The notes beneath the pieces are model-generated. The model had not been told where the DNA came from. It worked only from the letters and a program-made list of their open reading frames with translations, and made no database searches. A program made the position numbers and the translations under genes. DNA of 64,000 nucleotides from a virus: positions 38,446 to 102,445 of IMG/VR virus record IMGVR_UViG_3300049001_000080. One strand, given 5' to 3'. Shown here piece after piece: positions 3,258-38,592 of this stretch. Within the stretch, counting starts at the first letter, position 1. Each line of letters opens with the position of its first letter.

Positions 3258-6034
3258 CAGGACACGCCGAACGAGTTGGCGGCCTTGGCCACGTAGTTGA
3301 TCGAGTAGAGCGCGGGCACCTCGTTGTCGCCGAGCTGCACGTCCGCGGCCCGGGCCGGCGAGGACCCGGCGGTGATGAAGGAGATGCGGGTCCCGGCCGC
3401 GTCCACCCGCTCGATGGCGTAGGCGCCGCCGGTGGTCGGCTCGGCGCTGGTGAGGAGCCGGATGTTGTCCACGCCCGTCACCTCGTGCGCGACCTGGATG
3501 ACGTCGGACACCTGCACGGGCGAGCCGAAGTCCTTCGCCGCGAGGAAGACGGCCAGGGAGGCCTGGAGCGCGGTGGCCACCTGGGCCGGGTCGTAGCCGG
3601 GGACGAACATGATCGCGAAGTTCAGCCGCAGTAGCACGCGCTTGGCGGCGTGGGCCCGCACGTCGGTCGCGACCAGTCGCCACCGCTCGACCCGCTCCTG
3701 GACGTCGCGTGGGATGGCGTTGTAGGAGTACTGGAGCGACGCGGCGGCGTTGTTCGCCGGGTGGTGGGCGGCCAGCCACTCCAGCCCGAACAGCGACCGC
3801 GGGCTGTACCCGTACGCCGTGTCGTCGTGGACGACCCAGTAGTCGGTGCCCTTGACGTAGGTGTTCCCGCCGATGATCAGCGGGGAGGGGAAGACGTCGA
3901 TCGGGCCGAACGCGAGCTGCATGAAGATGTTGGCCGCGGTCGGGTGCGTGGAGACGGTGCCCTGGCGGACGAACTTGCCGGTGAACAGCGCGTCGGTCGA
4001 GCCCGACGTGAACACCCGGGCGGTCCGCATGTACGTCGTCTCGCTGGCGTCGACCGGCCGGTCCCCGTCCACCCAGACGTCCACCCGGTTGGTGATCCCG
4101 GCGGCCGGGTCGTTCCTGCTGGCCGAGCTGTTGTACTCGAAGTCGAGGTCGTAGATCGCCCCGTCGGTCAGGCCCACGCCGATCGTGTGCACCTCGGGCG
4201 GGATCACGGTGGCGTCGAACGAGTTACCTGTGAAGTAGGTCCGACCGCCTCGGCGAGCCAGGAAGGTGCCGTTCCGAGTGGTGGGACACCAGATCGGTCC
4301 TGCGTAATGACGCAGGCTCTTCTTCATGGGGGCGACGCTTACGTGGCGTACCTTTTTAATGTTGACGTGATGCATCTGTACGCGGCCAAATGGAGTGTCA
4401 AGGACCTTACGGCCTTGGCGTGTCGGGAGGCCAACTAGTGCGCAAAGTGCCTGGAATACATCTGCCTGATCGGCACTCGCAGTGCAGAAATACCGAGTAC
4501 CCGTGCCTGCCCCTCTGACCCCTCCTCCTTGCATTCCCCCGTCACCCTTGATCAAGGTGTCGATCAACATCTCGCGCTGATGGACAGGTAGGACTGAGAT
4601 CAGCTCGTAGGTCAGCTTCTTGTCGGGCAAGGCTGATCGGACTTGCCGGGCTAGTTCACGTGAAAAGGCAAAGATCGTGATGTCGTCGTCGATGTAGGTC
4701 TGATACGGATGCCCCAGCCTCTTGAGGAGGAGTCGGATCTCCTCCACCTTCTCAGGATTGGCGAGGTGACTCTGTCCGATTTTGACTCGAAGCTTCCTTG
4801 GCTGCGAGTCGAAGGAGCCGTCGCTAGCGACCCACCCCAGTAGTCGTACAAAATCATCGGTATAAATAGATTCGATGGACTCTTCGAGGGGAGCCGTAAC
4901 CACGATGCCGTCCGACGGCCGCAAGTCATGAGTCTCTCGTAGTATGGCGGGCTGGCTCGTGCGAATCCGGTGAGCGTTTGTGACCGGCCAACGGTGGTTC
5001 GTCGTCACCAAGGCCGAGATGGACCTCCCCTCCATCGATACGAGGGGCTCGTCTACTTCCGCTCGGTAAAGATCTGTCACCGGCGTCCATTCAGCGACGC
5101 CGCGATCCAGATTCAAGGAGAGAATCTCATCGCCGATCTGGATCTGTCGATGGTCTACCCAGCCACTGTGTGACAGGGCCTGCGTGTTTTTGTCCACGCA
5201 GTAATGTACCCCCAGGGTTAGGATCTGGCCGGCATCGAGGTCGGCGCCCAGGGCCGGGTTGTCGGCGTAGATGTAGGTCGCGCTGGTGGCGGGGATGGAG
5301 CTGGTCGCGTCGCCGGACCCGTCGATCTGGACCTGCTCGCGCCAGTGCGAGGAGGAGCCGATCACCCTGGCCCGGGTGGCCACCCCGTCGTCGGTGGTGT
5401 CGGGGGTGCTGTCCTCCAGCGAGAGGCCCAGGAACATGTCCTCGGTGCCGGCCAGGCTGCGGAACACCGTCCGCTTGAACCGGTCGATGAGCGCGAGGTC
5501 GTCCTCGGAGCTGGTGCCGCCGGTCGTGGGCGAGGAGTTGGTCACGCTGGCGACCCCGCTGGCCGGCGAGGCGAGCCTGACCAGGGTGTTGGCCGCGAGG
5601 TTCCCGGACTGGCCCCCGACGATCGCCTGCACCGGGACGTCCACGCTCGACACCCCGCGCTGGAGGATCGCGGGAGAGACGGTCGCGAACACAGCGGGGA
5701 CCGAGGTGGCCGTGGTGACCTGGGTGCCGGCGGCGATCGGGTAGTCCTGGTCGGCCGGCGTCGGGCGGGCGAACGTGACGACCCCGGTGCCGCGCTGCGC
5801 GGCGAACCTGGTGAAGCCGAACACGGCCACGAAGTCGTCGAGGTCGGCGCCGCGCTTGGAGTCGATGTCGAGCTGGTAGTTCAGCAGGTGCTGGTCGACG
5901 TACGCGGCGGCCACCGACTCGGCCACCACGTCGAGGATCTTGCGCACCGGCGTGCCGACCGAGGTGTCCAGCTCGGGCTCGGAGACGGCCAGGGCCGCGA
6001 CCATCTGGGCGGCGACGTCGGCGGCGCTGGCCAT
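3257..6034 (-). CDS. Baseplate J-like wedge protein, interrupted by an intein
   Basis: 925-residue precursor starting MASAADVAAQM, in ATGA overlap with the gp25-like gene. Exteins (residues 1-278 and 605-925, about 599 residues after splicing) have the J-family layout: N-terminal helix, a VDQHLLNYQLDID segment, a beta-rich core with the ARPTPADQDYPIAAGTQV stretch (residues 90-107), and a C-terminal part with VQVSDVIQVAHEVTGVDNI. J proteins form wedges around the hub. Residues 279-604 are an intein with its own entry, and its lower GC stands out against the exteins. The spliced junction joins LGVHY to SFDAT. Loss of splicing would be expected to block baseplate assembly. Confidence 0.93.
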   Translation of the reverse strand: MASAADVAAQMVAALAVSEPELDTSVGTPVRKILDVVAESVAAAYVDQHLLNYQLDIDSKRGADLDDFVAVFGFTRFAAQRGTGVVTFARPTPADQDYPIAAGTQVTTATSVPAVFATVSPAILQRGVSSVDVPVQAIVGGQSGNLAANTLVRLASPASGVASVTNSSPTTGGTSSEDDLALIDRFKRTVFRSLAGTEDMFLGLSLEDSTPDTTDDGVATRARVIGSSSHWREQVQIDGSGDATSSIPATSATYIYADNPALGADLDAGQILTLGVHYCVDKNTQALSHSGWVDHRQIQIGDEILSLNLDRGVAEWTPVTDLYRAEVDEPLVSMEGRSISALVTTNHRWPVTNAHRIRTSQPAILRETHDLRPSDGIVVTAPLEESIESIYTDDFVRLLGWVASDGSFDSQPRKLRVKIGQSHLANPEKVEEIRLLLKRLGHPYQTYIDDDITIFAFSRELARQVRSALPDKKLTYELISVLPVHQREMLIDTLIKGDGGMQGGGVRGAGTGTRYFCTASADQADVFQALCALVGLPTRQGRKVLDTPFGRVQMHHVNIKKVRHVSVAPMKKSLRHYAGPIWCPTTRNGTFLARRGGRTYFTGNSFDATVIPPEVHTIGVGLTDGAIYDLDFEYNSSASRNDPAAGITNRVDVWVDGDRPVDASETTYMRTARVFTSGSTDALFTGKFVRQGTVSTHPTAANIFMQLAFGPIDVFPSPLIIGGNTYVKGTDYWVVHDDTAYGYSPRSLFGLEWLAAHHPANNAAASLQYSYNAIPRDVQERVERWRLVATDVRAHAAKRVLLRLNFAIMFVPGYDPAQVATALQASLAVFLAAKDFGSPVQVSDVIQVAHEVTGVDNIRLLTSAEPTTGGAYAIERVDAAGTRISFITAGSSPARAADVQLGDNEVPALYSINYVAKAANSFGVS
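4223..5200 (-). other. Intein with LAGLIDADG homing endonuclease in the J protein
   Basis: 326 codons in frame with the host gene, residues 279-604. Splicing signatures: Cys at position 1 (CVDKNTQALS), block B TTNHR at about position 67, a C-terminal WCPTTRNGTFLARR stretch, and terminal YFTGN followed by Ser as the +1 nucleophile. The penultimate residue is Gly instead of the usual His, a known but less common variant. Two LAGLIDADG-type helices are visible: LLGWVASDGSF (about 120-130) and LIDTLIKGDGG (about 213-223). Base composition is visibly more AT-rich than the flanks, consistent with recent gain. Homing into uninterrupted J alleles is inferred from the endonuclease motifs. Confidence 0.92.
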
Positions 6035-25559: not shown

Positions 25560-26609
25560 CTAGCTCGCGTTAGAGATGTCTGTCAACCCCGCGAGCTGGT
25601 CGCGCCACCACTCCGCCGACCGGTCGGCCTTGCCCGTGTTGCAGCGCCGGCAGGCCAGGACGAGGTTGTGGCGCTCACGCCTGCCGCCTCTGGACCGAGG
25701 CACGACGTGGTCCGCGGTCCCCATCCGTAGCCACTCGTCGCGGCCGGAGGGCACGAGGTCGACGCGCGCTAGGTACGGCTCGGGTGGGGCCGGTGTCCGG
25801 CCGGGTACCCAGGTGATGTCCGGGTAGTCGAGGATCGCCACCTCGCAGTAGTGGCAGGTCCAGTCGGACTCGTCGGCCAGCCTGTGCAGCTTCTGGTAGT
25901 GGTAGCCCGTCGTGGCGCCAGCGCACGAGACGGAGAACCTCGTCTCTCCCCTGCTCCTGGAGCTGGTGACCCAGGTCGGCGGGACGACGGACCCGCCGAC
26001 CATCCAGAAGATCTCGGTCGACTCGTCCGACCTCGGCCTCGCGAAGTACTGCCGGTACCACCGACGCGCCGTCTGAGCGGTCACCCCGAGGTCGGCGGCC
26101 ACGTCGGCCAGTGGCTCGCCAGCGGCGACCCGGGCCACCAGGAGGACGTGCCGGACGCGGGGCGGGCCCGCGACCGCGGTGAGGTCAGGAATCCGCGCCG
26201 GCTGCGGGTCGGCCGGCGGCTCCTGCGGCTGGTAGCGGCGCGTCTCGCCACAGCAGCGCCGGCAGGAGATCACGAAGTCGTCCGTGCCGCAGTCGGTGGG
26301 GACCCGGCGCGTGATGGCGATCAGGTGCTCGGGGGTCTTGAACGGGTAGAGCACGTCCTGCCCGCTCGCGCTCAGGCGCCAGTCGACGTCGGAGACGTCG
26401 AGGGTGGTCTCGCCGCAGGAGCGGCACGCCCACCCGTCCCGCTCGGCGACCCGGTGGATGCGCCGGTGGTTCTGGGTGTCGGGGCACTCGACCCGGTAGC
26501 GGGTCAGGAACGGGTACAGGGGGTGCGGCTCGCCGAGGCGGTAGGCCGGCGCTCGCTGTCCGGTGCAGGTCCAGGTGAGACCGATCGGTACCTCGGTGGA
26601 GTCTCCCAT
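25560..26609 (-). CDS. HNH endonuclease with two zinc-finger halves and a central HTH
   Basis: 349 residues from ATG 26609 (GAGGAGC upstream). N-terminal half: a degenerate HNH-like unit with CRSC (about 85-88) and CRRC. Middle (about 190-215): helix-turn-helix EPLADVAADLGVTAQTARRWYRQYF. C-terminal half: a second unit with CHYC, then the HNH core DHVVPRSRGGRRERHN, LACRRCNTGK. Only the C-terminal half keeps the catalytic H-N-H pattern. This layout suits a sequence-specific nicking or homing enzyme whose first half became a DNA-binding arm. It stands alone between promoter and terminator. Confidence 0.85.
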   Translation of the reverse strand: MGDSTEVPIGLTWTCTGQRAPAYRLGEPHPLYPFLTRYRVECPDTQNHRRIHRVAERDGWACRSCGETTLDVSDVDWRLSASGQDVLYPFKTPEHLIAITRRVPTDCGTDDFVISCRRCCGETRRYQPQEPPADPQPARIPDLTAVAGPPRVRHVLLVARVAAGEPLADVAADLGVTAQTARRWYRQYFARPRSDESTEIFWMVGGSVVPPTWVTSSRSRGETRFSVSCAGATTGYHYQKLHRLADESDWTCHYCEVAILDYPDITWVPGRTPAPPEPYLARVDLVPSGRDEWLRMGTADHVVPRSRGGRRERHNLVLACRRCNTGKADRSAEWWRDQLAGLTDISNAS

Positions 26610-26640
26610 ACGTGCTCCTCGTGCTGCTGGCGGAGACCAC

Positions 26641-26670
26641 ATCGTGTCACGACGAGGGGTCGGCTATCAA
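26641..26670 (-). promoter_or_regulatory. Probable sigma70-type promoter of the HNH gene
   Basis: On the minus strand TTGATA (26665-26670), 18 bases, CACGAT (26641-26646), followed by a leader with CCGCCAG and GAGGAGC before ATG 26609. Confidence 0.45.
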
Positions 26671-28342: not shown

Positions 28343-28611
28343 GCCACGCCCAGCATCGTCAAGCGCTGTGTGTAGGAGAGCTGGTTAAGGATGTCCGATA
28401 GCTCTGTTGCCCACGCCACTACGTCTGCCTCGTACTGGTCGTCTGATCCTAGGACAGGAGGGAACGGCGCGTAATCGTCCTCGACGTTGAGGTCGTCGAT
28501 CCAGACGTGCATCGGTCCTCCAGCCTCGTGCCTGGAGTAGATCATCCGGATCAGGAGTCGGCCTCGTTCGATATCCCGCGCTGCGGTCGTGCTGTCCGCT
28601 GGCTCGCTCAC
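28339..28611 (-). CDS. Unknown small protein
   Basis: 90 residues from GTG 28611, GTGA overlap with the methyltransferase-like gene. It begins VSEPADSTTAARDIERG, then LLIRMIYSRHEAGGPMHVWIDDLNVEDDY, an acidic mid-part and a helical end (VVAWATELSDILNQLSYTQRL). No family recognised. Confidence 0.7.
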   Translation of the reverse strand: MSEPADSTTAARDIERGRLLIRMIYSRHEAGGPMHVWIDDLNVEDDYAPFPPVLGSDDQYEADVVAWATELSDILNQLSYTQRLTMLGVA

Positions 28612-29279
28612 GCGGCCACCTCCAGCGTCGCCATGAGCCGGGAGCCGACCCACTCGGTGTAGGCGGGAGGGATCGCCTGGGCAAGCTCGATGTTGGTCAT
28701 CCAGTCGATGCCCATCGCCGCGACCCGCTCGGCCTTCGCCCCGTTGTACTCGCCCCTCGGGGCCGTACCCCCCCCGCCGTGCCCGTAGACGCCCACCGAG
28801 GCGTCGGTGTGATCGCACGGCCCCGGGGCGGCCAGGGTGAGGCTGGACTCGAACAGGCGGTGCCTGCGGAGCTGCCTGTGGACCCCGTCGGAGCAGGTGG
28901 TGCCCAGCCCGAACATCGACCCGCACAGCACCAGCGGGTCGCGCAGCGGGGCGCCCGGGACGTTCTCGATCACCCACGGCAGGCCCGAGCGCTCGAACAG
29001 GTGCCGGGTCGCCGCGACCAGCCAGCCGGTCCCGTGCTCGGGCCACATCGCGCGGAACCTGCCGTGGTCGTGGCAGGGCGGCGAGCCGACGACCACGTCG
29101 AACCGCCCGGAGGCGAGCAGCTCCGCGCCCACCTCCAGCGCGTCACCCCGCACGAACTCGAAGGGGTACCGGGGCTGCGGCGCGATGTCCACGCCCACCA
29201 CGTCGAAGCCGGCCCGGTGGTAGCCGGCGGACGCCCCGCCGGCCTTGCAGAACAGATCGAGGGCTCGACGGCGGGTCAT
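28608..29279 (-). CDS. Compact cytosine-C5 DNA methyltransferase-like protein
   Basis: 223 residues, ATGA overlap with the upstream methyltransferase. Motif I is ALDLFCKAGGASAGYHRAGF then VVGVDI; motif IV is VVGSPPCHDHGRF with the catalytic Pro-Cys but His where Gln is usual; motif VI is WVIENVPG; the C-terminus has IPPAYTEWVG as a motif X equivalent. It is shorter than typical Dcm enzymes and lacks an obvious target-recognition region, like several phage relatives. It presumably modifies cytosine in DNA using S-adenosylmethionine; specificity unknown. It is paralogous to the gene at 30247-30941. Confidence 0.82.
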   Translation of the reverse strand: MTRRRALDLFCKAGGASAGYHRAGFDVVGVDIAPQPRYPFEFVRGDALEVGAELLASGRFDVVVGSPPCHDHGRFRAMWPEHGTGWLVAATRHLFERSGLPWVIENVPGAPLRDPLVLCGSMFGLGTTCSDGVHRQLRRHRLFESSLTLAAPGPCDHTDASVGVYGHGGGGTAPRGEYNGAKAERVAAMGIDWMTNIELAQAIPPAYTEWVGSRLMATLEVAA

Positions 29280-30250
29280 GATGTCGCTCCGGTACACACC
29301 AAGACCGCCCCAGCCATCAGCGGGGGGATCGCGTTGCCGATCTGACGGAAGCGCGAGGCGACCGGACCACACCAAGGGTGGCCAGGAGGGAGGCTCTGGA
29401 GAGTGGCCGCCTCCTCGATGGTGAGTCGAACCTGGCTGTGCGCGGCCCGGTCGGTGGGCCGTGGCACCCAGGTCGACTCCGCGATCCGCTCTCGCCACCA
29501 GGCACGACGCCAGGACGAGCCGACCAGCACGTCCGCCCCCGCCTGCCGGCCACGGGCCGTCAACACCGTCGGGGCGGGCGCGTCGGACAGCCCCCACCCG
29601 ATCGCCTCGGCCATGCTGATCCACCTCGGAAACGCGGCGTCTACGGGTCCGCCTCGACCGTTGTACGCGGCGTGGGTGGCTGCGGGTAGCTCGGCTTCAC
29701 CGTGTAGCCGAGCTACTAGTACAGCTCGCTTGCGGGCCTGAGGCACGCCGAACTGCTCAGCGGATAGCACGCCCGTAGCGGTGGAGTAGCCTCGCCCCGT
29801 CAGCACGGCCGCGATGGCCTCCCAGATCGGCAGGACACTCGGCACCTGTTCCAGCGCGACCCACTCTGGCTGGGTGGTCAACGCCCAGCGGAGCGGCTCC
29901 AGCACCAGCGCGGTGCGCGGGTCATCGGTGGCCGCGACCTCCTCGGCCGGCCACTCCCCGGTGTCGAGCCGCTTGATCGCCTGCACCACCAGGTCGAGCT
30001 GTCGCTGCCCGCTACGTAGGCCACCCTCACTAAAGGTCTGGCACGGCGCGCTGGCGATCAGGCCTCGTGCCAGGATCGGCTCGACCTCACGCACGTCGGC
30101 CTGGAGGGTGTCTAGCCCGGCTGCAAGCCTAGTCGCCACACAGTCGGGGTCCGTCTCCACGCCCAGCACCCGCAGGCCGAGCCCTCGGGCAGCGAGAGAC
30201 CATCCACCTGCCCCGCCCGAGAACAGGTCTACAGCGTCGTACGCGCTCAC
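29276..30250 (-). CDS. Cytosine-C5 DNA methyltransferase (Dcm-type)
   Basis: 324 residues, start MSAYDAVDLFSGGAGG. All key motifs are visible: I (DLFSGGAGGWSLAARGLG), IV (SAPCQTFSEGG with catalytic Cys), VI (ALEQVPSV), VIII (QARKRAVLVAR), IX (RLTIEEAATLQSLP) and X (RQIGNAIPPLMAG). A short target-recognition region lies between VIII and IX (WISMAEAIGWG to TWVPRP). Such enzymes transfer methyl to C5 of cytosine and usually protect phage DNA from host restriction. It is the middle gene of three. Confidence 0.92.
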   Translation of the reverse strand: MSAYDAVDLFSGGAGGWSLAARGLGLRVLGVETDPDCVATRLAAGLDTLQADVREVEPILARGLIASAPCQTFSEGGLRSGQRQLDLVVQAIKRLDTGEWPAEEVAATDDPRTALVLEPLRWALTTQPEWVALEQVPSVLPIWEAIAAVLTGRGYSTATGVLSAEQFGVPQARKRAVLVARLHGEAELPAATHAAYNGRGGPVDAAFPRWISMAEAIGWGLSDAPAPTVLTARGRQAGADVLVGSSWRRAWWRERIAESTWVPRPTDRAAHSQVRLTIEEAATLQSLPPGHPWCGPVASRFRQIGNAIPPLMAGAVLVCTGATS

Positions 30251-30941
30251 GCTGCGGCCTCAAGAGCCCGCATGACCTGTCCCCCGACGTAGCGGGTGTA
30301 CTCGGGCGGGATCGCCTCGCACACCTCGCGGATGCCGACGCGGGTGCGCTCGAAGTCGGCGTCCTCCGGGATGGCCAGCCAGGGCAGGCCCATGACCTCG
30401 GCCGCTGCCCGCTGCCAGGCGCGAGAGTGCTTGCCGCCGTGGACCGACATGAACTGGCCGTCTCGCGGGAGGTAGCCGTTGCGCGCGCAGCGGGCGACGT
30501 GCGCGGGCAGGGCAGGCCGTGTGATCGGGACGGACGACTCGAACCCCCGGTGCCGGTAGACGCGGAGGTCAAACATGGACCCGCAGAGGACGACGGGGTC
30601 CAGCAGCGGGGCCTGCGTGACGTTCTCGATCACGTACGGCACGCCGCTCGCCCTGAGCAGCTCGCGTACCGGGGCCACGAGGTCGGGGTAGGTGTGCCGG
30701 TTGTAGGCGTTCAGCAGGCTGTACGACTGGCACGGAGGGCTGGCGTGGATGAGGTCGAACGTCCTGAGGAAGGGCAGGTCGGCCAGCACCGTCATCGCGT
30801 CGGCCTGGATGAACTCGTGTGGGTAGCGCGGCTGAGGGTCGATGTCGACGCCCACGACCTGGAGCCCGGCGAGCTGGTAGCCACGGGACGCACCCCCCCG
30901 CAGCAGAACAGGTCGAGCACCTTAGGGCGGGTCAGCGGCAT
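30247..30941 (-). CDS. Compact cytosine-C5 methyltransferase, frameshifted in a G tract
   Basis: The natural start is ATG 30941 (AAGGAG upstream): PLTRPKVLDLFCC, the beginning of motif I. A run of seven G then puts the continuation out of frame; eight would give GGGASRGYQLAGLQVVGVDI and join the rest. Downstream, motif IV (HASPPCQSYSLLN), VI (YVIENVTQA) and a C-terminal AIPPEYTRYVG are intact to the stop. As written, only a form starting at GTG 30855 could be made, which lacks motif I and should not bind AdoMet. Either a sequencing error, a dead gene, or a phase-variable switch. Confidence 0.75.
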
Positions 30942-31010
30942 GGGGTCTCCTTCTGGCGGGTTCCCAAGAGCGTAGCGCCTGCGCGCTGTCTAGTGGCAGG
31001 GAAGTCTAAC
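30942..31010 (-). promoter_or_regulatory. Leader and probable promoter of the methyltransferase operon
   Basis: The minus strand has GCTACGCT (TACGCT at 30969-30974) as a -10 candidate and GGGAACCCGCCAGAAGGAG as leader before ATG 30941. The -35 is unclear (TAGACA lies at a spacing of only 12). The leader matches those at 22.65 and 63.72 kb. Confidence 0.4.
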
Positions 31011-31035
31011 TCACGAGGCCGCCTTCGCCTCGTCC

Positions 31036-31311
31036 TCATCGACCTTCCTCTGCCTGACGGATGGCGATCCTGCCGCCCGTCCATGCCTCCGGGTCGATCG
31101 GCTTCACCCACAGGATGCCGCCCTCGACCTCGACGGCCCAGACCTCGACCGCGATGCCGGTGCTGGCGAGGCGCGTGACGTAGTAGTAGGACCGCCCCAG
31201 GTCGGTCACGCTGGTCGAGGCGCTCTCGATCGAGGCGACGTCGGGGTGGTCCTCCCGGATGGTCGCGACGACGCCGAGGTCTGGTCGGTAGGGGCTGCCG
31301 TACCACCCCAT
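31036..31311 (-). CDS. Small protein after the multi-HTH nuclease
   Basis: 91 residues, ATG 31311 in ATGA overlap with the nuclease gene. Begins GWYGSPYRPDLGVVATIRED; rest is a beta-rich small domain (SYYYVTRLASTGIAVEVWAVEVEGGILWVKPID). Coupled translation suggests it is co-produced with the nuclease, possibly as an accessory subunit or inhibitor; nothing in the sequence proves this. Confidence 0.75.
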   Translation of the reverse strand: MGWYGSPYRPDLGVVATIREDHPDVASIESASTSVTDLGRSYYYVTRLASTGIAVEVWAVEVEGGILWVKPIDPEAWTGGRIAIRQAEEGR

Positions 31312-32858
31312 CACAGACCCCGGGGGTCGTCGGCGTAGGACCGCAACAACGCGACGAAGGCGGCGCGGGTCGGGGTCGCTGACACCTCCAGCAGGCGACC
31401 GCGATCTGCTACGGCGAGCGCTCCCCGCTCCTGGCGGAATGCCGCCCACTGCTGGAGGTTGTGCGCCTTGACCTCACCTTTGATCTCTACTGGGAGGTCG
31501 CCCTCGGGGGTGGATACGACGAAGTCGGGGCCGTACAGGTGTCCGTCGTAGGCCACCTCTCCGTCCGCTTGACGGTCGTACCTGCGCACGACCGCCTTGC
31601 GGAGGGTGCACGCCGAGACGAACGCGGCCTCGTAGGAGGACTCGTGGTAGACCCCGTTGATGTAGCCGGTGCTCTCACTGGCAGGGAGGCTCTTGAGGTG
31701 CGTCCGAGCGCACTCCTCGTGGTACTTGCGCGGCTGACTCTTCCGGTGCCGGATGTCGCCGTCACCCGCCGCGCAGGGGGTGGTCGTCCAGTTGGCCGGG
31801 TCCTCCTCGCGCTTCTTCCCGTACCGATCCCGGCACTCGGGGTGGTAGCTGCGGCTCTTGCTCCCCGTCCATCCGCCGCACGGGCAGAGCTGGCCGCGTA
31901 GGTCGTCCAGCACCTCACCGAAGCGGCCCTCTGCCGTCACCCCGCCCTGAGCCAGCAGGCGCCGGACGGTGTAGAAGTCGGCGTGCGCCCGCTTGGCGAT
32001 CTCGCTGATCCCGACCCCCTCGCCGTACATCTTGACGACCTCGGCGACGCGCTCAGGAGAGTCGGGGGAGGATCGCGCCGGGGAGCCAGCCTCCCGCAGC
32101 CACCGGTACAGGCTGCTCGGCGTGACCCCGACGTCCTGGGCGACCGCCACCGGCTCCTCCCCTCGGGCGATGCGTTCGACGGCCTCTTTGGTGCGGGGGT
32201 GAGGCGGGCGCCCCGGCTGCGACCGGTGATCTTCTGTCGAGTGGCTCGCGAACGATGTCGGGTACAGCGGCCTCACGCCGCTGTCGCGCAGCCACTTCTC
32301 GATGGTGCCGCGGTTCACCAGCTCGTCGAGTGCCTGGCGGATCTGCTCGGTGTCCTTGCCCTGCCCGTGCAGCTCCAGCACCCGGGCGAGGTTTCGGTCT
32401 CGCTTCGCCGGAGGCTTCCCTCCCGGCGGCTTGCGCTGGACCCCCTGCTCGCCGGCCCAGCGCTGGACGGTGCGCTCGGAGACGTGGTAGCGGGCGGCGA
32501 TCTCTCCGACGGGGTGGCCGTCGCGGTAGAGAGCCACCGCCTCGTCTGCGACTCGATCTACCGGGTTCGCGGTGGCCAGGCCCATCTCGCGCATCCAGCG
32601 GTGGACCGTATGGATCGGCTCGCCGATCGTGCCGGCGATCTTGGAGGGGCCGTCCCCCCGGGAGTTCAGCTCGCGGATCTGGTCCTCGAAGCCTGATCGA
32701 CGGCTCTTGACCCCCGCCCTCTGCCCCCGGCCGTTAGCCCTGACGATCTCCCGGACGAGGTAGCCGGGGACCCCGACCTTGAGCGCGATGGCGTTCGCTG
32801 GCTCCCCCAGGTCGTGCAGGCGCAGGACCTCGGGGGTGCGATCTGAGGTATCATGCAT
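31311..32858 (-). CDS. Multi-HTH, double zinc-ribbon, PD-(D/E)XK nuclease
   Basis: 515 residues from ATG 32858. Residues 1-340 hold about five to six tandem helix-turn-helix units (for example EVLRLHDLGEPANAIALKVG, ALYRDGHPVGEIAARYHVSE, VARGEEPVAVAQDVGVTPSSLYRWL-type repeats, VVKMYGEGVGISEIAKRA). Residues 345-425 have two Cys/His zinc modules (LCPCGGW to HPEC; TPCAAGDG to HEEC). The C-terminal 90 residues carry a PD-(D/E)XK core: GPDFVVSTPEGD, PVEIKGEV, then Q in LQQWAAFRQE. The layout (many DNA readers plus one nuclease) suits a homing or rare-cutting endonuclease. It lies beside a duplicated piece of the capsid gene. Confidence 0.85.
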   Translation of the reverse strand: MHDTSDRTPEVLRLHDLGEPANAIALKVGVPGYLVREIVRANGRGQRAGVKSRRSGFEDQIRELNSRGDGPSKIAGTIGEPIHTVHRWMREMGLATANPVDRVADEAVALYRDGHPVGEIAARYHVSERTVQRWAGEQGVQRKPPGGKPPAKRDRNLARVLELHGQGKDTEQIRQALDELVNRGTIEKWLRDSGVRPLYPTSFASHSTEDHRSQPGRPPHPRTKEAVERIARGEEPVAVAQDVGVTPSSLYRWLREAGSPARSSPDSPERVAEVVKMYGEGVGISEIAKRAHADFYTVRRLLAQGGVTAEGRFGEVLDDLRGQLCPCGGWTGSKSRSYHPECRDRYGKKREEDPANWTTTPCAAGDGDIRHRKSQPRKYHEECARTHLKSLPASESTGYINGVYHESSYEAAFVSACTLRKAVVRRYDRQADGEVAYDGHLYGPDFVVSTPEGDLPVEIKGEVKAHNLQQWAAFRQERGALAVADRGRLLEVSATPTRAAFVALLRSYADDPRGL

Positions 32859-32915
32859 GGTAGGGAGCCCTTCATCATGGTGGTCCGACAACCTCCATGG
32901 TACGGGCTCCCTACC
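32859..32915. promoter_or_regulatory. 12-bp inverted repeat abutting the nuclease start codon
   Basis: GGTAGGGAGCCC (32859-32870) and GGGCTCCCTACC (32904-32915) are perfect mates, loop 33. On the plus strand TTTTT follows, so it may end antisense transcription. On the minus strand the 3' arm touches ATG 32858, so the hairpin could hide the nuclease start and limit its translation. The loop contains GGAGG and a 7-codon ORF. Confidence 0.6.
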
Positions 32916-32955
32916 TTTTTGGCAAAAACACGCTGTAACTAAGTGCCACGAAGAC

Positions 32956-32997
32956 CATCTCGTCGAACACCCAGCCCTTCCAGAAGCTCTCCAGGCC
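32956..32997. repeat. Copy of the major capsid gene 3' region
   Basis: 31 identical bases (32956-32986 versus 33135-33165), then two mismatches and CTCCAGG again. On the minus strand it encodes LESFWKGWVFDEM, the same residues as the capsid C-terminal segment, then diverges (VFVALSYSV) and stops. It is a remnant of a second capsid end next to the nuclease gene. Confidence 0.85.
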
Positions 32998-33007
32998 CTC
33001 CACGCAG

Positions 33008-33059
33008 CACTAAGCCCACATCTCAACCCCGTTCAGGAGGGTGAGCTGCGGGCTTAGTG
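33008..33059 (-). terminator. Hairpin after the capsid gene
   Basis: CACTAAGCCC (33008-33017) and GGGCTTAGTG (33050-33059) pair perfectly, loop 32, 9 bases past the capsid stop. Likely a terminator or processing hairpin that limits read-through into the nuclease gene. Confidence 0.6.
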
Positions 33060-33068
33060 AGAGGTATG

Positions 33069-34079
33069 TCAGCCCGTGTAGGTTGATTTCGTCACAGTGG
33101 CGATTCCACGTGGGTTCAAGATCGCCATCGAGATCATCTCGTCGAACACCCAGCCCTTCCAGAAGGACTCCAGGCGGTTGTTCTCCTCGACGTCCAGGCT
33201 GTAGAGGACGGGGAAGACGCCCAGGAACTGGGGGTCCGGCAGCAGGAACGCCTTGCCCTGCGGCACCATCACCGACCGCTGGACCTGGAACTCGCCGAAC
33301 GTGGTGATCTTCTGGCCGGCCACCACGCGGTCCTTGAACGCCCAGCCCGTGGTGTTCTGGTCGAACAGGTAGAAGTCCCGGTAGTCGGCCGGGCTCAGCA
33401 GCAGCCTGGCCGCCTCGATCTCGCGCAGGTCCGTCATGGTCACGGCGGCGTAGAGCGCGGCCGGCGTGATGCCGCCCGAGGCGATGGTGACGTTCTGCGC
33501 GCCCGGCGTGGGGTTGTCCGCCCGGGTCGCGTAGTCGGTGACCGCGGCCTGGAGCAGGACCATCAGCCGCGCGTCCTCCTGCTTGAGGATCGACTGCTTG
33601 GTCTCGTCCTGGGCCTGCTCGACCATGTTGACGCGGAAGGAGTAGAGGTCCTCCTTGCGCATCGCCGGGAAGCTCGCGAGGCGGAAGAAGTCCACCCGCA
33701 CGCGCTTGCCCTCGAAGGGCGTGACGCGGACCTCGCCGTCGTGCCCGGACAGGACGTACGACTGGCCGAGGTCGTCGAACACCTCGTAGGTGACCTCGGT
33801 GCCGGGCACGACCGGGTCCTCGATCAGGACGTTGCGGATCATGCCCTGGTACCGGAGCTTGAGCTGGATCGGGCCGATCATGCCGACGCCCAGGCGCTGG
33901 ATGCCGTTGACCGAGTCGCTCAGGATCAGGGCGAGCTTCTGCTGCTTCTCGGCGCTGCTGAGCCGGGTGACGACCAGGTCGTCGCCCTCGCGCCGGGCGT
34001 GCTTGAGGTACGCGTCGACGTAGTCGTCGGACCGCCGCGCGGGCTTCCGGAGTCCACCCGCCAGGACGGGGAGTGTCAT
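33069..34079 (-). CDS. Major capsid protein
   Basis: 336 residues, MTLPVLAGGLRKPARR. The order (after a protease/scaffold gene and a decoration-like gene) and the sequence fit an HK97-fold coat: helical N-arm (VDAYLKHARREGDD), a long spine helix region (DLYSFRVNMVEQAQDETKQSILKQEDARLMVLLQAAV), P-domain strands (FQVQRSVMVPQGKAFLLPDPQFLGVFPVLYSLDV) and a conserved tail (FWKGWVFDEMISMAILNPRGIATV). It assembles into the icosahedral shell. Part of its 3' end is duplicated at 32956-32997. Confidence 0.9.
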   Translation of the reverse strand: MTLPVLAGGLRKPARRSDDYVDAYLKHARREGDDLVVTRLSSAEKQQKLALILSDSVNGIQRLGVGMIGPIQLKLRYQGMIRNVLIEDPVVPGTEVTYEVFDDLGQSYVLSGHDGEVRVTPFEGKRVRVDFFRLASFPAMRKEDLYSFRVNMVEQAQDETKQSILKQEDARLMVLLQAAVTDYATRADNPTPGAQNVTIASGGITPAALYAAVTMTDLREIEAARLLLSPADYRDFYLFDQNTTGWAFKDRVVAGQKITTFGEFQVQRSVMVPQGKAFLLPDPQFLGVFPVLYSLDVEENNRLESFWKGWVFDEMISMAILNPRGIATVTKSTYTG

Positions 34080-34119
34080 CGGTCTCTTCCTCTCGGGTGC
34101 TCGGCCGGCCCGCGGACGG

Positions 34120-34646: not shown

Positions 34647-35435
34647 ATGACTCAGAACCAGTCCTGTGGATGTACTCCCGAGTGCCCGATCACGTGGGGT
34701 ACCTGCCACTGCGGATGTAGCACTCCGACTCGGATCGCACCCCAGAACAGCGCCGAACGAGGCTGGGTACGCGGCCAGCCGGTCCGCTACCGGAGAGGGC
34801 ATGCGCCACGGAATATCAACCACACACTCAGCGATCTCGACGAGACGAGACGGACCGCCACCTGCTCGCTCTGCGGCTCGGTCAGCATCAAGCGAAACGG
34901 GGCGAGCGGCTGGCGATGCCATCGCGGGATCATCGCTAAGCATCGGATCGTCGAGGTCGACGAGGAGGCCCGGACCGGCTACTGCCGGGCCTGCTCCAGT
35001 CGCGTCGACCTGCTGCGGCACACCCGGGACGGCTGGGTCTGTAAGCCGAACAAGGTCAAGACTGCCCAGGCCTGGCGCGATGCCAACATCGAGCGTCACC
35101 GTGAGATGAACCGCGCCTGGCGTGACGCCAACCGTGACCGCATTCGGAGCACCCATCTCGCGAAGAAATACGGCCTCACCGTCGAGCAGTACGAGGCGAT
35201 GATCGCCGGCCAGGGCGGCGTCTGTGCGGTCTGTCGTCAGCCACCGAGACCCGAGCACCGAGGCGGCATGCTGCACGTCGACCATGACCACGAGACCGGC
35301 GTCGTGCGTGGCGCGCTGTGCGCGAGCTGTAACCTGCTGCTCGGCCTGGCGGGTGACGCCGTCGAGGTCCTGAGGGGCGCGATCGAGTACCTGCTCCAGC
35401 ATCAGGACCTCCTCCCCGTTGCCCCGGCGGGGTGA
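34647..35435 (+). CDS. Endonuclease VII-like HNH protein, only plus-strand gene
   Basis: 262 residues, reading against every neighbour. Residues 1-130 hold several Cys pairs (CGCTPEC, CHCGC, CSLCG, YCRACSS), zinc-finger-like. Residues about 165-240 are an endonuclease VII domain: KKYGLTVEQYEAMIAGQGG, CAVCRQ, HVDHDHETG, GALCASCNLLLG, with the His-Asp-His core between two CxxC pairs. T4 endonuclease VII resolves branched DNA, while many phage relatives are free-standing homing enzymes. Lower GC and reverse orientation inside the head operon favour a mobile insertion. It ends before the strong hairpin at 35500-35543. Confidence 0.9.
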   Translation: MTQNQSCGCTPECPITWGTCHCGCSTPTRIAPQNSAERGWVRGQPVRYRRGHAPRNINHTLSDLDETRRTATCSLCGSVSIKRNGASGWRCHRGIIAKHRIVEVDEEARTGYCRACSSRVDLLRHTRDGWVCKPNKVKTAQAWRDANIERHREMNRAWRDANRDRIRSTHLAKKYGLTVEQYEAMIAGQGGVCAVCRQPPRPEHRGGMLHVDHDHETGVVRGALCASCNLLLGLAGDAVEVLRGAIEYLLQHQDLLPVAPAG

Positions 35436-36636: not shown

Positions 36637-38592
36637 CCGTACTCCTACCCCTTCGGGATGCGCCGCCCCTGACGTGGCCAGGGGTGGCCGGTCGTCGTCC
36701 TCGTCCTGGTCGTCGTCGGGCTCGTCGTCCTCTTCCTCGTCGTCGCCCTCGTCGTCCAGGTCGTCTGGGTCCTCCTCGGCGTCGGCGGCCGGGTCCTCCG
36801 CGCCGTCGTCGCCCTCCTGGTCGAGGCCTCGGGCCATCTCCAGGTCGGGGTCGGTGAACTGGTCGGGCGGCGCGACGTACCCGCACACCTGGCACTGGTC
36901 GCCGTCGAACGTCTCGGTGTCCCCGCAGATGGGGCAGTCCTCGGGGCGCAGGGTGTCGACCTTGGCGGGGGCGACCTGCTCGCCGTACCCGAGGCGCGCC
37001 GAGCCGGAGTGGTAGCCGGGCCCGTGCAGCTCGGGGTAGTGCTCGTGCGACCACTGGTCCCACCTCTCGCGGTCGTGCCCGCGGTTGGTGCGGCGGCCCT
37101 TGTCGAGCTGGTCGCTGTCGGCGTTGGCGTCGTCCTCCTGGACGTTCTCGCGCTGGCGCACCAGCCAGGTCGTCGCCTGCACCTGGTGCGGCTCCACCGG
37201 GTGGCCCTCGGTCTCGGAGATCCGGCGGGCGGCCTCGTGGTAGGCCGCCACGACGTGGCCGTAGTAGTGCCGGTTGTCGAGCGGCGCCTTGTCCAGGTCG
37301 TGCGCGCCGAACCTCTTGCCGGCGGCCACCGACATGGCGTGCCGGTCGATGACGGCGCGGGGGTGCGCGGGGTCGGCGTCGCCGCCGTGCTCGATGAGGT
37401 GGGCGAAGTCCTGGATCTTCGGGCCCTTGAGCACGTCCTGGTGGTGCTCGCCGTCGATGATCCGCTGCGCCTGGCCCTTCATCGAGCCGGTGGCGAAGAC
37501 GCCGGAGCCCGGCCCGCCCAGGGCGGTGCCGGTGTGCAGCGACCGGGCGGCGTTGAACATGTTGACCGGCCACGCGGTCTGCGGGGAGTAGGCGGCCAGC
37601 ACCCCGGCGCCCTTGTGCGCGTCGCCGTGCGCGATGGCCTTGGCCACGATGTGCGCGTCGCCGTACCAGCGCTTGCCCTGCTCGCGCTCGTCGGGCGTCG
37701 CCCGGCCCCAGTGCGCCACGATGTGGTCGGCGTGCACGGGGTTGGCCTGGAAGAAGGGGTGGTCGCCCGGGTCGGCGTGGCGCGGAGCGGCCTCGGCCTG
37801 GAGGGCGGCTGCCTCGTCTAGGCGCTCGCCCGGCTGTGTGGCTTCCCGCCGGCTCGCGGTCGCTACCAGACGAGTGGAGGCGTGGGGCTCACGCTCCAAC
37901 GAGCTGGTCGTCCTCGTGGGGGCGTCGAGCCCGCGGGCGTCCACGCCGACGACGTGCGCCGTCGGATCGGCGGGCTGCTCGACCAGCAGGCTGTTCTCGA
38001 AGAAGCCGAGGCCGTAGCAGACCTCGCTGACGAGCACGGCCTCGCGCCGGCCGGAGGCGGCCCGGCGGGTTACGCGCTGGCCCTTCATCGTCTTGACGTG
38101 CGCGCAGTACTCCAGCGGGGTCTCGGCGCGGTTGCCGCAGAACGAGCACAGCGAGTACTCGACGTTCGCGCCCATGCTGGTCCGGTCGACCTCCTCCTTG
38201 AGGATCGCGGCGGCCAGCTTCGGGAATCGGACGGCGTCGACCTCCATGAGGGCCTCGACCCACACGTCCGGCGACCCGTCGGGGTTGACGTCCTCGTGCA
38301 GGGCGGCGTCCACCACCACGCCGCGGGCGCGACGCGGGTTGGCGTTCGCGTGGTTGACGAATACCGGCTTGCCGATGAAGGTGCGCCAGGCCTTCTTGAT
38401 CTCCGCAGCCGGGAACGTGTCGTAGTTGTCGTTCGTCCGGCTACTTATCGCCCTGGAGCGGACATACAGGAATCCGGGGCGCGGCTCGTAGGCGAAGGCG
38501 TGCCTGTGCCCGGTGACCAGCAGGCGGGGGTGGTCGGGGCGGCTCACCAGCGTGCTGGACAGCACGCGCATCCGGGCGTAGCGCTGGATCAC
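35554..38592 (-). CDS. Prohead protease-scaffold fusion with an inserted enzyme-like domain
   Basis: 1012 residues, GTG 38592. Domains: 1-230 capsid maturation protease (FVNHANANP with His81, DRTSMGANVE with Ser139, then CSFC and CAH); about 277-480 an inserted domain (HPFFQANPVHADH, RWYGDAHIVAKAIAHGD, VLAAYSPQTAWPVNMFNAAR) that looks like a stand-alone enzyme or DNA-binding fold; a CPIC/CQVC zinc ribbon (about 555-567); an Asp/Glu tract (590-640); a helical scaffold-like region from 653 on, with its own internal start; and a Pro/Thr-rich tail. The protease would trim coat and scaffold; the acidic linker and helices would drive shell assembly. The job of the inserted domain is unknown. Confidence 0.9.
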   Translation of the reverse strand: MIQRYARMRVLSSTLVSRPDHPRLLVTGHRHAFAYEPRPGFLYVRSRAISSRTNDNYDTFPAAEIKKAWRTFIGKPVFVNHANANPRRARGVVVDAALHEDVNPDGSPDVWVEALMEVDAVRFPKLAAAILKEEVDRTSMGANVEYSLCSFCGNRAETPLEYCAHVKTMKGQRVTRRAASGRREAVLVSEVCYGLGFFENSLLVEQPADPTAHVVGVDARGLDAPTRTTSSLEREPHASTRLVATASRREATQPGERLDEAAALQAEAAPRHADPGDHPFFQANPVHADHIVAHWGRATPDEREQGKRWYGDAHIVAKAIAHGDAHKGAGVLAAYSPQTAWPVNMFNAARSLHTGTALGGPGSGVFATGSMKGQAQRIIDGEHHQDVLKGPKIQDFAHLIEHGGDADPAHPRAVIDRHAMSVAAGKRFGAHDLDKAPLDNRHYYGHVVAAYHEAARRISETEGHPVEPHQVQATTWLVRQRENVQEDDANADSDQLDKGRRTNRGHDRERWDQWSHEHYPELHGPGYHSGSARLGYGEQVAPAKVDTLRPEDCPICGDTETFDGDQCQVCGYVAPPDQFTDPDLEMARGLDQEGDDGAEDPAADAEEDPDDLDDEGDDEEEDDEPDDDQDEDDDRPPLATSGAAHPEGVGVRMSTSTGRTQAVGAGEGKNPAGEQRVRLLAAMRAQQNLIEAQGARLTAQERVGQQVVAQLDRAVGLLGVIVDLAGLSGHPKAAALAPPQDARTASFHAGRRQGALDHQQHAALDTAAKADEWGRADDAWKDGWTAGYEASRRTAAGDQRGDPVPTTNEQALAPAATDDPQAYGAAPAPANQGVTPAATTDVQSTDVALPAVPFNQLTDVTAPTPADISAPPPVQDSHVPQQNETLTTPDLQPAMTDTGWTTGSADSRFFAALGLARLRRAAGITRRDELEEAQAIVADATATPQVVAAATQTLQDVLGAGRRTAASTARRDLVPTPAGGGRSMPSVAGTPGVQVAAASPGAVVQAEFLDLA

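Follow-up and report, generated by a model that had tools for sequence, protein, structure and literature searches.

The window analysed here, a 64,000-nt portion of a 102-kb uncultured virus record, contains on its minus strand a gene for a homing-type endonuclease (31311..32858), identified from its ORF, Pfam and helix-turn-helix (HTH) profile matches, an AlphaFold model and sequence alignment. We think it probable that we have here a homing endonuclease gene (HEG) of the free-standing kind, located at the 3' end of the major capsid protein (MCP) gene, whose product would bind a target in the capsid gene with an array of HTH units and control itself through a copy of that target in its own leader, i.e. 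a layout like that of I-TevI, made from unrelated domains. The ORF runs from an ATG at 32858 to 31311 and encodes a protein of 515 aa, termed here P0001; the plus strand shows no open frame at 31311-32858. Read along the minus strand from 34079 to 31311, the region comprises the MCP gene, a stem-loop, a 52-nt copy of MCP sequence, a promoter-like site, a hairpin and the P0001 gene. The MCP gene, the proposed target (33069..34079, minus strand), was recognised by matches to phrog_2522 (E=6e-96) and NF042927 (E=1.8e-89), and it is ~56% identical to the capsid genes of Mycobacterium phages Myrna and HyRo and up to 72% identical to uncultured viral contigs. The stem-loop past its stop codon (33008..33059, minus strand) is an inverted repeat with a z of -5.0; a search for a T-run terminator at this stem-loop revealed none.

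P0001 combines a nuclease domain with a predicted sequence-reading domain, as expected of an HEG. Residues ~5-304 (31947..32846, minus strand) form six tandem HTH units, detected by Pfam families (HTH_23, E=3.8e-20; HTH_7, 6.5e-18), by a local HTH profile, which counts 6 units, and in the AlphaFold model as six three-helix units (residues ~5-43, 52-91, 99-137, 152-192, 221-256 and 268-304). They are followed by two degenerate Cys/His (zinc-finger-like) modules (residues ~320-390; 31689..31901, minus strand), which line up with the intact C-x(1-2)-C...YCSxxC fingers of relatives; in P0001 they read YHPEC/YHEEC, with one Cys gone, and the model confidence is moderate there and low at 388-399. 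The C-terminal 120 residues (396-515; 31314..31673, minus strand) adopt in the model a PD-(D/E)XK fold with an alpha-beta core and an acidic residue in the first helix; pLDDT is 80 for the whole protein and 94 for this domain. Among 20 aligned family members E410, D445 and K460 are invariant and E458 is kept in at least 90%, and the catalytic residues persist in relatives at only 23-33% identity. The top sequence-profile match to P0001 in the PDB is T7 endonuclease I (E=1.7e-4), and the top structural matches of the nuclease domain are the archaeal Hjc and Bax1 nucleases. The domain is thus a member of the PD-(D/E)XK superfamily. The Pfam family of T7 endonuclease I (PF05367) does not match P0001 and matches two of eight relatives, with a best E of 0.0045. 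We found no Pfam HNH match in P0001, and the alignment and the model both indicate PD-(D/E)XK, so that the RefSeq name of relatives, HNH endonuclease, does not apply; a GIY-YIG catalytic domain is likewise not among the families listed for P0001. A role in defence was also dismissed, PADLOC having given only a weak, HTH-level match to mad1. An earlier note on this DNA had proposed five to six HTH units in tandem, two Cys/His modules and a PD-(D/E)XK core. All three are borne out, with the HTH count settled at six and the Cys/His modules present but degenerate, and the separate HTH units and C-terminal nuclease fold, without which that note had said its reading would fall, are both seen in the AlphaFold model.

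A scan of MCP neighbourhoods revealed relatives of P0001 just 3' of MCP in several contigs. In the reverse test, the more stringent of the two, in which loci were collected by nuclease similarity alone, 37 of the 38 recovered have MCP directly upstream on the same strand, 10-190 bp away (666 in one); the survey of other phages suggested in the earlier note has thereby turned up both relatives and a fixed site. In all, the family is present within 3 kb in 44 of 130 distinct MCP loci. Shorter relatives occur in at least 139 cultured phage records, mainly of Bixzunavirus and nearly all from Mycobacterium phages, where they are deposited as "HNH endonuclease", "Holliday junction resolvase" or hypothetical protein; the relative in the NuevoMundo record even bears the name major capsid protein. 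P0001 stands at the HTH-rich end of a family in which short members are numerous; their sequences exist already from mycobacteriophages, under wrong annotations. The earlier suggestion that no known family has this exact domain order stands insofar as we have not found the HTH-array form described in open-access papers, but the protein is no orphan, with many short relatives in existence. Among cultured phages there was no match to the window phage DNA, nor to full-length P0001 by tblastn, and the HTH-array relative at locus L033 has no full-length match in INPHARED. Searches of bacterial and archaeal genome contigs with the patterns tried, and of plasmids with one member as query, revealed no relatives either, and with these limited queries we set aside a cellular origin of the family. 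In phages related to nuclease carriers (L208, L082, L212) we also found convergent HNH-like ORFs just 3' of MCP, and the post-capsid site therefore seems to be a hotspot that nucleases of several types share.

Comparison of occupied and empty sites reveals the traces of mobility. The occupied locus L130 and the empty L076 are 92% identical as far as 7 nt ahead of the MCP stop codon, and 94% identical over 1508 nt from the nuclease stop on. In the pair L068 and L179 (empty), the last MCP codons and terminator of L179 (-25..+80, 95%) now form the end of the nuclease ORF, and the L068 MCP bears a replacement 3' end. These junctions imply that the element enters the MCP 3' end and rebuilds it. Inserts lie at -25 to +15 in uncultured phages with sharp junctions and up to ~+80 past the MCP stop in Bixzunavirus, where SmallFry is empty and ET08, QBert, Yucca and HyRo carry different inserts in the same place between flanks 95-99% identical. 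MCPs 99.7% identical stand beside nucleases only 34% identical, which indicates that alleles replace each other. Some alleles have decayed, e.g. that of L131, with an internal stop, and that of Tonenili, of which only a fragment is left. In L122/L123 the nuclease-family match does not end at an in-frame stop but continues into a long open frame, which is probably a decayed copy and possibly joined to the next gene; a 1317-aa fusion in L122 was not confirmed, and a shorter 289-aa ORF stops inside the matched stretch. Among the empty alleles found, none is close to the window phage. Judged by sequence comparison, the empty sites, replaced alleles and MCP 3'-end insertions indicate a free-standing HEG, and the homing element suspected in the earlier note thus finds support in empty and occupied alleles at one site and in allele turnover. 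The same data bear on the reading of P0001 as a nuclease with which the phage resolves Holliday junctions or packages its DNA, and which lies beside MCP by chance. Its fold and sequence, like those of T7 endonuclease I and Hjc, would suit such a role, and the deposited annotations agree, yet the family is missing from most MCP loci, including those of viable cultured phages such as SmallFry, same-site alleles are down to only 20-35% identity under near-identical capsids, and decayed copies are tolerated; we regard this reading as highly improbable.

For an HEG at this site the leader offers a candidate target. A copy of the MCP 3'-end site, the proposed operator, was detected as a repeat and from the leaders of relatives at 32945..32996 (minus strand; core 32959-32982). 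It is a 52-nt duplication, 88% identical to 33124-33175, so the duplicated capsid piece reported in the earlier note is real, and the window contains its 24-nt core just twice, which none of 100 shuffles reproduced. The core of the proposed recognition site within MCP (33138..33161, minus strand; codons WKGWVFDE) is the part to which the leader copies at other loci correspond; these copies sit between MCP and the nuclease and come from the same MCP spot throughout (codons F-W-K-G-W-V-F-D-E-M). When each locus's own MCP tail was aligned with its leader, a score of at least 28 was reached in 8 of 44 nuclease loci, as against 0 of 86 nuclease-free loci and 0 of 42 controls with other MCP segments. 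Scoring against the MCP consensus (score of at least 19) gave a copy for 9 of 10 distinct proteins with at least three HTH units versus 0 of 33 others, the nine top loci having z values from 5.4 to 12.7 in a shuffle control and the best of the 33 others 3.8. With a looser z cut-off the figures are 9/10 versus 3/33 (Fisher p=4e-6). The association is strong, but the HTH-array proteins represent roughly five lineages and do not count as ten independent events. Locus L149 has six HTH units without a clear leader copy. Two further candidates were dropped, in L111 (by eye, the end of a convergent HNH-like ORF) and in L041 (weak, on a short contig without a family nuclease). In L205/L206, whose MCP is ~98% identical to that of L100 and which have no nuclease, a degenerate inverted MCP copy lies in the gap, as loss of the element would leave it.

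The leader copy might also be a mere scar, i.e. an old insertion or foldback repair might have duplicated the MCP 3' end without any regulatory role. The window copy is direct, and true duplications of MCP 3' codons do occur at right junctions of several inserts (5 of 39 versus 0.25 expected; see also L068). In L039 a very long near-perfect hairpin (5361-5563) is followed by a 72-nt inverted copy spanning MCP -74..-2, which looks like foldback synthesis at a terminator. On the other side, seven of the nine leader copies are inverted and two direct, yet the same ~30-bp core is kept in all and the rest is lost in most. Four copies, in both orientations, share the bases GTCTTNRTG, which occur in 0 of 130 MCP genes, so these are not fresh local duplications, and the copies track HTH arrays rather than insertion as such. 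We therefore consider a scar unlikely, if still a serious competitor. The earlier note had taken the position beside the duplicated piece as a hint of a homing element. The piece is there, but as a mere mark of insertion it fits poorly with relatives' copies that are mostly inverted and found nearly only with an HTH array, a pattern that suggests a site bound by the protein. A copy usable in either orientation argues for a double-stranded binding site, and most simply the HTH array would bind the MCP-site sequence in both places, with its target in MCP and its operator in the leader.

The second feature of the leader is an RNA hairpin predicted by folding directly 5' of the start codon (32859..32915, minus strand), with a 12-bp outer stem that would hide the ribosome-binding region. 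At -39.5 kcal/mol (z -7.2, 0 of 200 shuffles) it is the strongest among 41 minus-strand ORF leaders in the window. Many relatives have similar hairpins ahead of the gene; this count includes some MCP terminators, where the gap is short, and some cases in which the gene start is uncertain. Another highly stable hairpin (z -6.4) lies ahead of a start codon at 38592 (minus strand), in the leader of a 1012-aa ORF, and may be the terminator of the preceding gene. The promoter-like site TTGCCA-N17-TACCAT (32897..32925, minus strand) is the only one of its kind in 31000-34100, with 0.1 expected, and comparable promoters occur in 13 of 42 family leaders versus 1.5 expected. The MCP-site copy ends 19 nt upstream of its -35 box, and its -10 box begins 2 nt past the hairpin 5' arm; a -10 box within ~2 bases of the end of this arm is found in the window and about eight relatives. 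With this placement transcripts from the predicted promoter would not have the 5' arm, and read-through transcripts of the capsid operon would be locked. In L033, L039 and L021 the -10 box lies instead 6-8 nt ahead of the start codon, as in leaderless transcripts. An Rfam search around the P0001 gene gave no match, neither to an intron nor to another known RNA, and with the upstream MCP ORF complete we rejected a group I intron-encoded endonuclease.

These observations lead us to the following scheme for the HEG. The six-HTH array would bind ~30 bp at the MCP codons WKGWVFDEM, a site that the capsid protein could alter only at wobble positions. In co-infecting phages without the element the PD-(D/E)XK domain would cut nearby, probably downstream and round the MCP stop, where we place the cut because the inserts sit there, and repair from the carrier genome would copy the nuclease gene across. 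The carrier's own MCP keeps an intact site, and self-protection therefore requires that the cut be elsewhere or blocked; by analogy with I-TevI, the insert would split the cut site and spare the site of binding, and binding to the leader copy would not be followed by cleavage. Through this copy, just upstream of its own promoter, the protein might control its own synthesis, while the hairpin would block translation on read-through capsid-operon transcripts and leave those from the internal promoter translatable. Alternatively, the array could chiefly regulate capsid expression or block competing phages or satellites, with cutting secondary: DNA-binding domains derived from HEGs are capsid repressors in ICP1 satellites (CapR, PMC10448857), and the array's proposed site is inside the capsid gene. 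Conservation of the catalytic residues even among distant relatives, a predicted promoter and translational lock of its own and the optional nature of the gene make this, in our opinion, improbable.

The genes around the proposed HEG include several of related interest. A small ORF at 31036-31311 overlaps the P0001 gene as TGATG, in agreement with the translational coupling claimed in the earlier note. Its membership of the element, which that note thought possible, is doubtful: searches gave no relatives of this ORF, it adjoins no known relative of P0001, and going by sequence it is probably unrelated to the nuclease element. An Endonuclease VII-type gene at 34647-35435 (Pfam PF02945, E=1e-23) is inserted on the opposite (plus) strand, adjoins a cement-protein gene and probably encodes another homing endonuclease, one of the F-CphI type. 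The HNH endonuclease encoded at 25560-26642 (minus strand) contains an HTH unit that shares ~35-40% identity with HTH 5 of P0001, a likeness that suggests domain exchange among the homing enzymes of one phage. Three neighbouring cytosine-methyltransferase-like genes occupy 28608-30855 (minus strand), two of them diverged paralogues with blocks 53-67% identical.

Homing endonucleases are already known, those of the PD-(D/E)XK class included, as are HEGs that neighbour capsid genes and the control circuit of I-TevI (PMC6083498, PMC10448857, PMC2988022). New, as far as our searches show, are this family with the capsid site that it occupies, its form with an HTH array, the association between array and target copy and the convergent control layout; we did not find the family described in the open-access literature that we searched, subscription papers being mostly outside the search. 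An apparently orphan protein thus becomes a testable system: the sequence itself points to its probable target as well as to a candidate operator, promoter and translational switch, and there are mycobacteriophages in culture with and without a relative of the nuclease gene. Our findings suggest that ~140 phage genes now under other names (HNH endonuclease, Holliday junction resolvase, hypothetical protein) encode homing nucleases of the capsid site. They also suggest that selfish nucleases displace one another at the capsid 3' end, which would make it a hotspot. Tandem HTH arrays that may read ~30 bp could also interest DNA-targeting work.

The closest parallel to the proposed layout is I-TevI of T4, which, like P0001, has separate DNA-binding and nuclease domains and a Zn element (PMC2988022). 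I-TevI, I-TevII, I-TevIII, SegB and MobE have hairpins that hide the ribosome-binding site and promoters placed so that the enzyme's own transcript escapes, and the I-TevI operator resembles its homing site in 15 of 20 nt (PMC2988022). P0001 likewise has a leader site resembling its putative MCP target and a predicted hairpin with the promoter inside, from which its own transcript would start without the 5' arm. In contrast, I-TevI is of the GIY-YIG type and belongs to a group I intron, whereas P0001 is a free-standing PD-(D/E)XK enzyme of a family with up to six HTH units; the T4 operator overlaps the promoter and has no cleavage motif, whereas the window copy lies upstream of the promoter. 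We give about even chances to the broader view that a PD-(D/E)XK family independently evolved the whole I-TevI circuit, with a decoy-target operator usable either way, a promoter nested in a hairpin and an expandable HTH array reading a constrained capsid sequence, a circuit that would reveal its target from sequence. If true, homing enzymes would have arrived convergently at the layered control of I-TevI in T4 as a general solution. The Bixzunavirus nucleases 3' of MCP (ET08 gp89, QBert gp94, HyRo gp92) share family, place and empty and occupied alleles with P0001, but they are shorter, have neither an HTH array nor a leader MCP copy, and insert up to ~80 nt past the MCP stop. I-Ssp6803I is a characterised PD-(D/E)XK homing endonuclease, intron-encoded and with a cyanobacterial tRNA gene as target; it is not known to have an HTH array or zinc modules, and it shares with P0001 the PD-(D/E)XK catalytic class. 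This class is counted among homing endonuclease families (PMC6083498). F-CphI, of the Endo VII type (DHHRN), is, like P0001 in our reading, a free-standing phage homing enzyme with a Holliday-junction-resolvase fold and a C-terminal nuclease (PMC6083498), although its nuclease fold is unrelated to that of P0001. Finally, the T5orf172/GIY-YIG HEGs of ICP1 and its relatives resemble P0001 in their beads-on-a-string DNA-binding repeats, terminal nuclease and position beside essential phage genes (PMC10448857), and differ from it in both nuclease and repeat domains.
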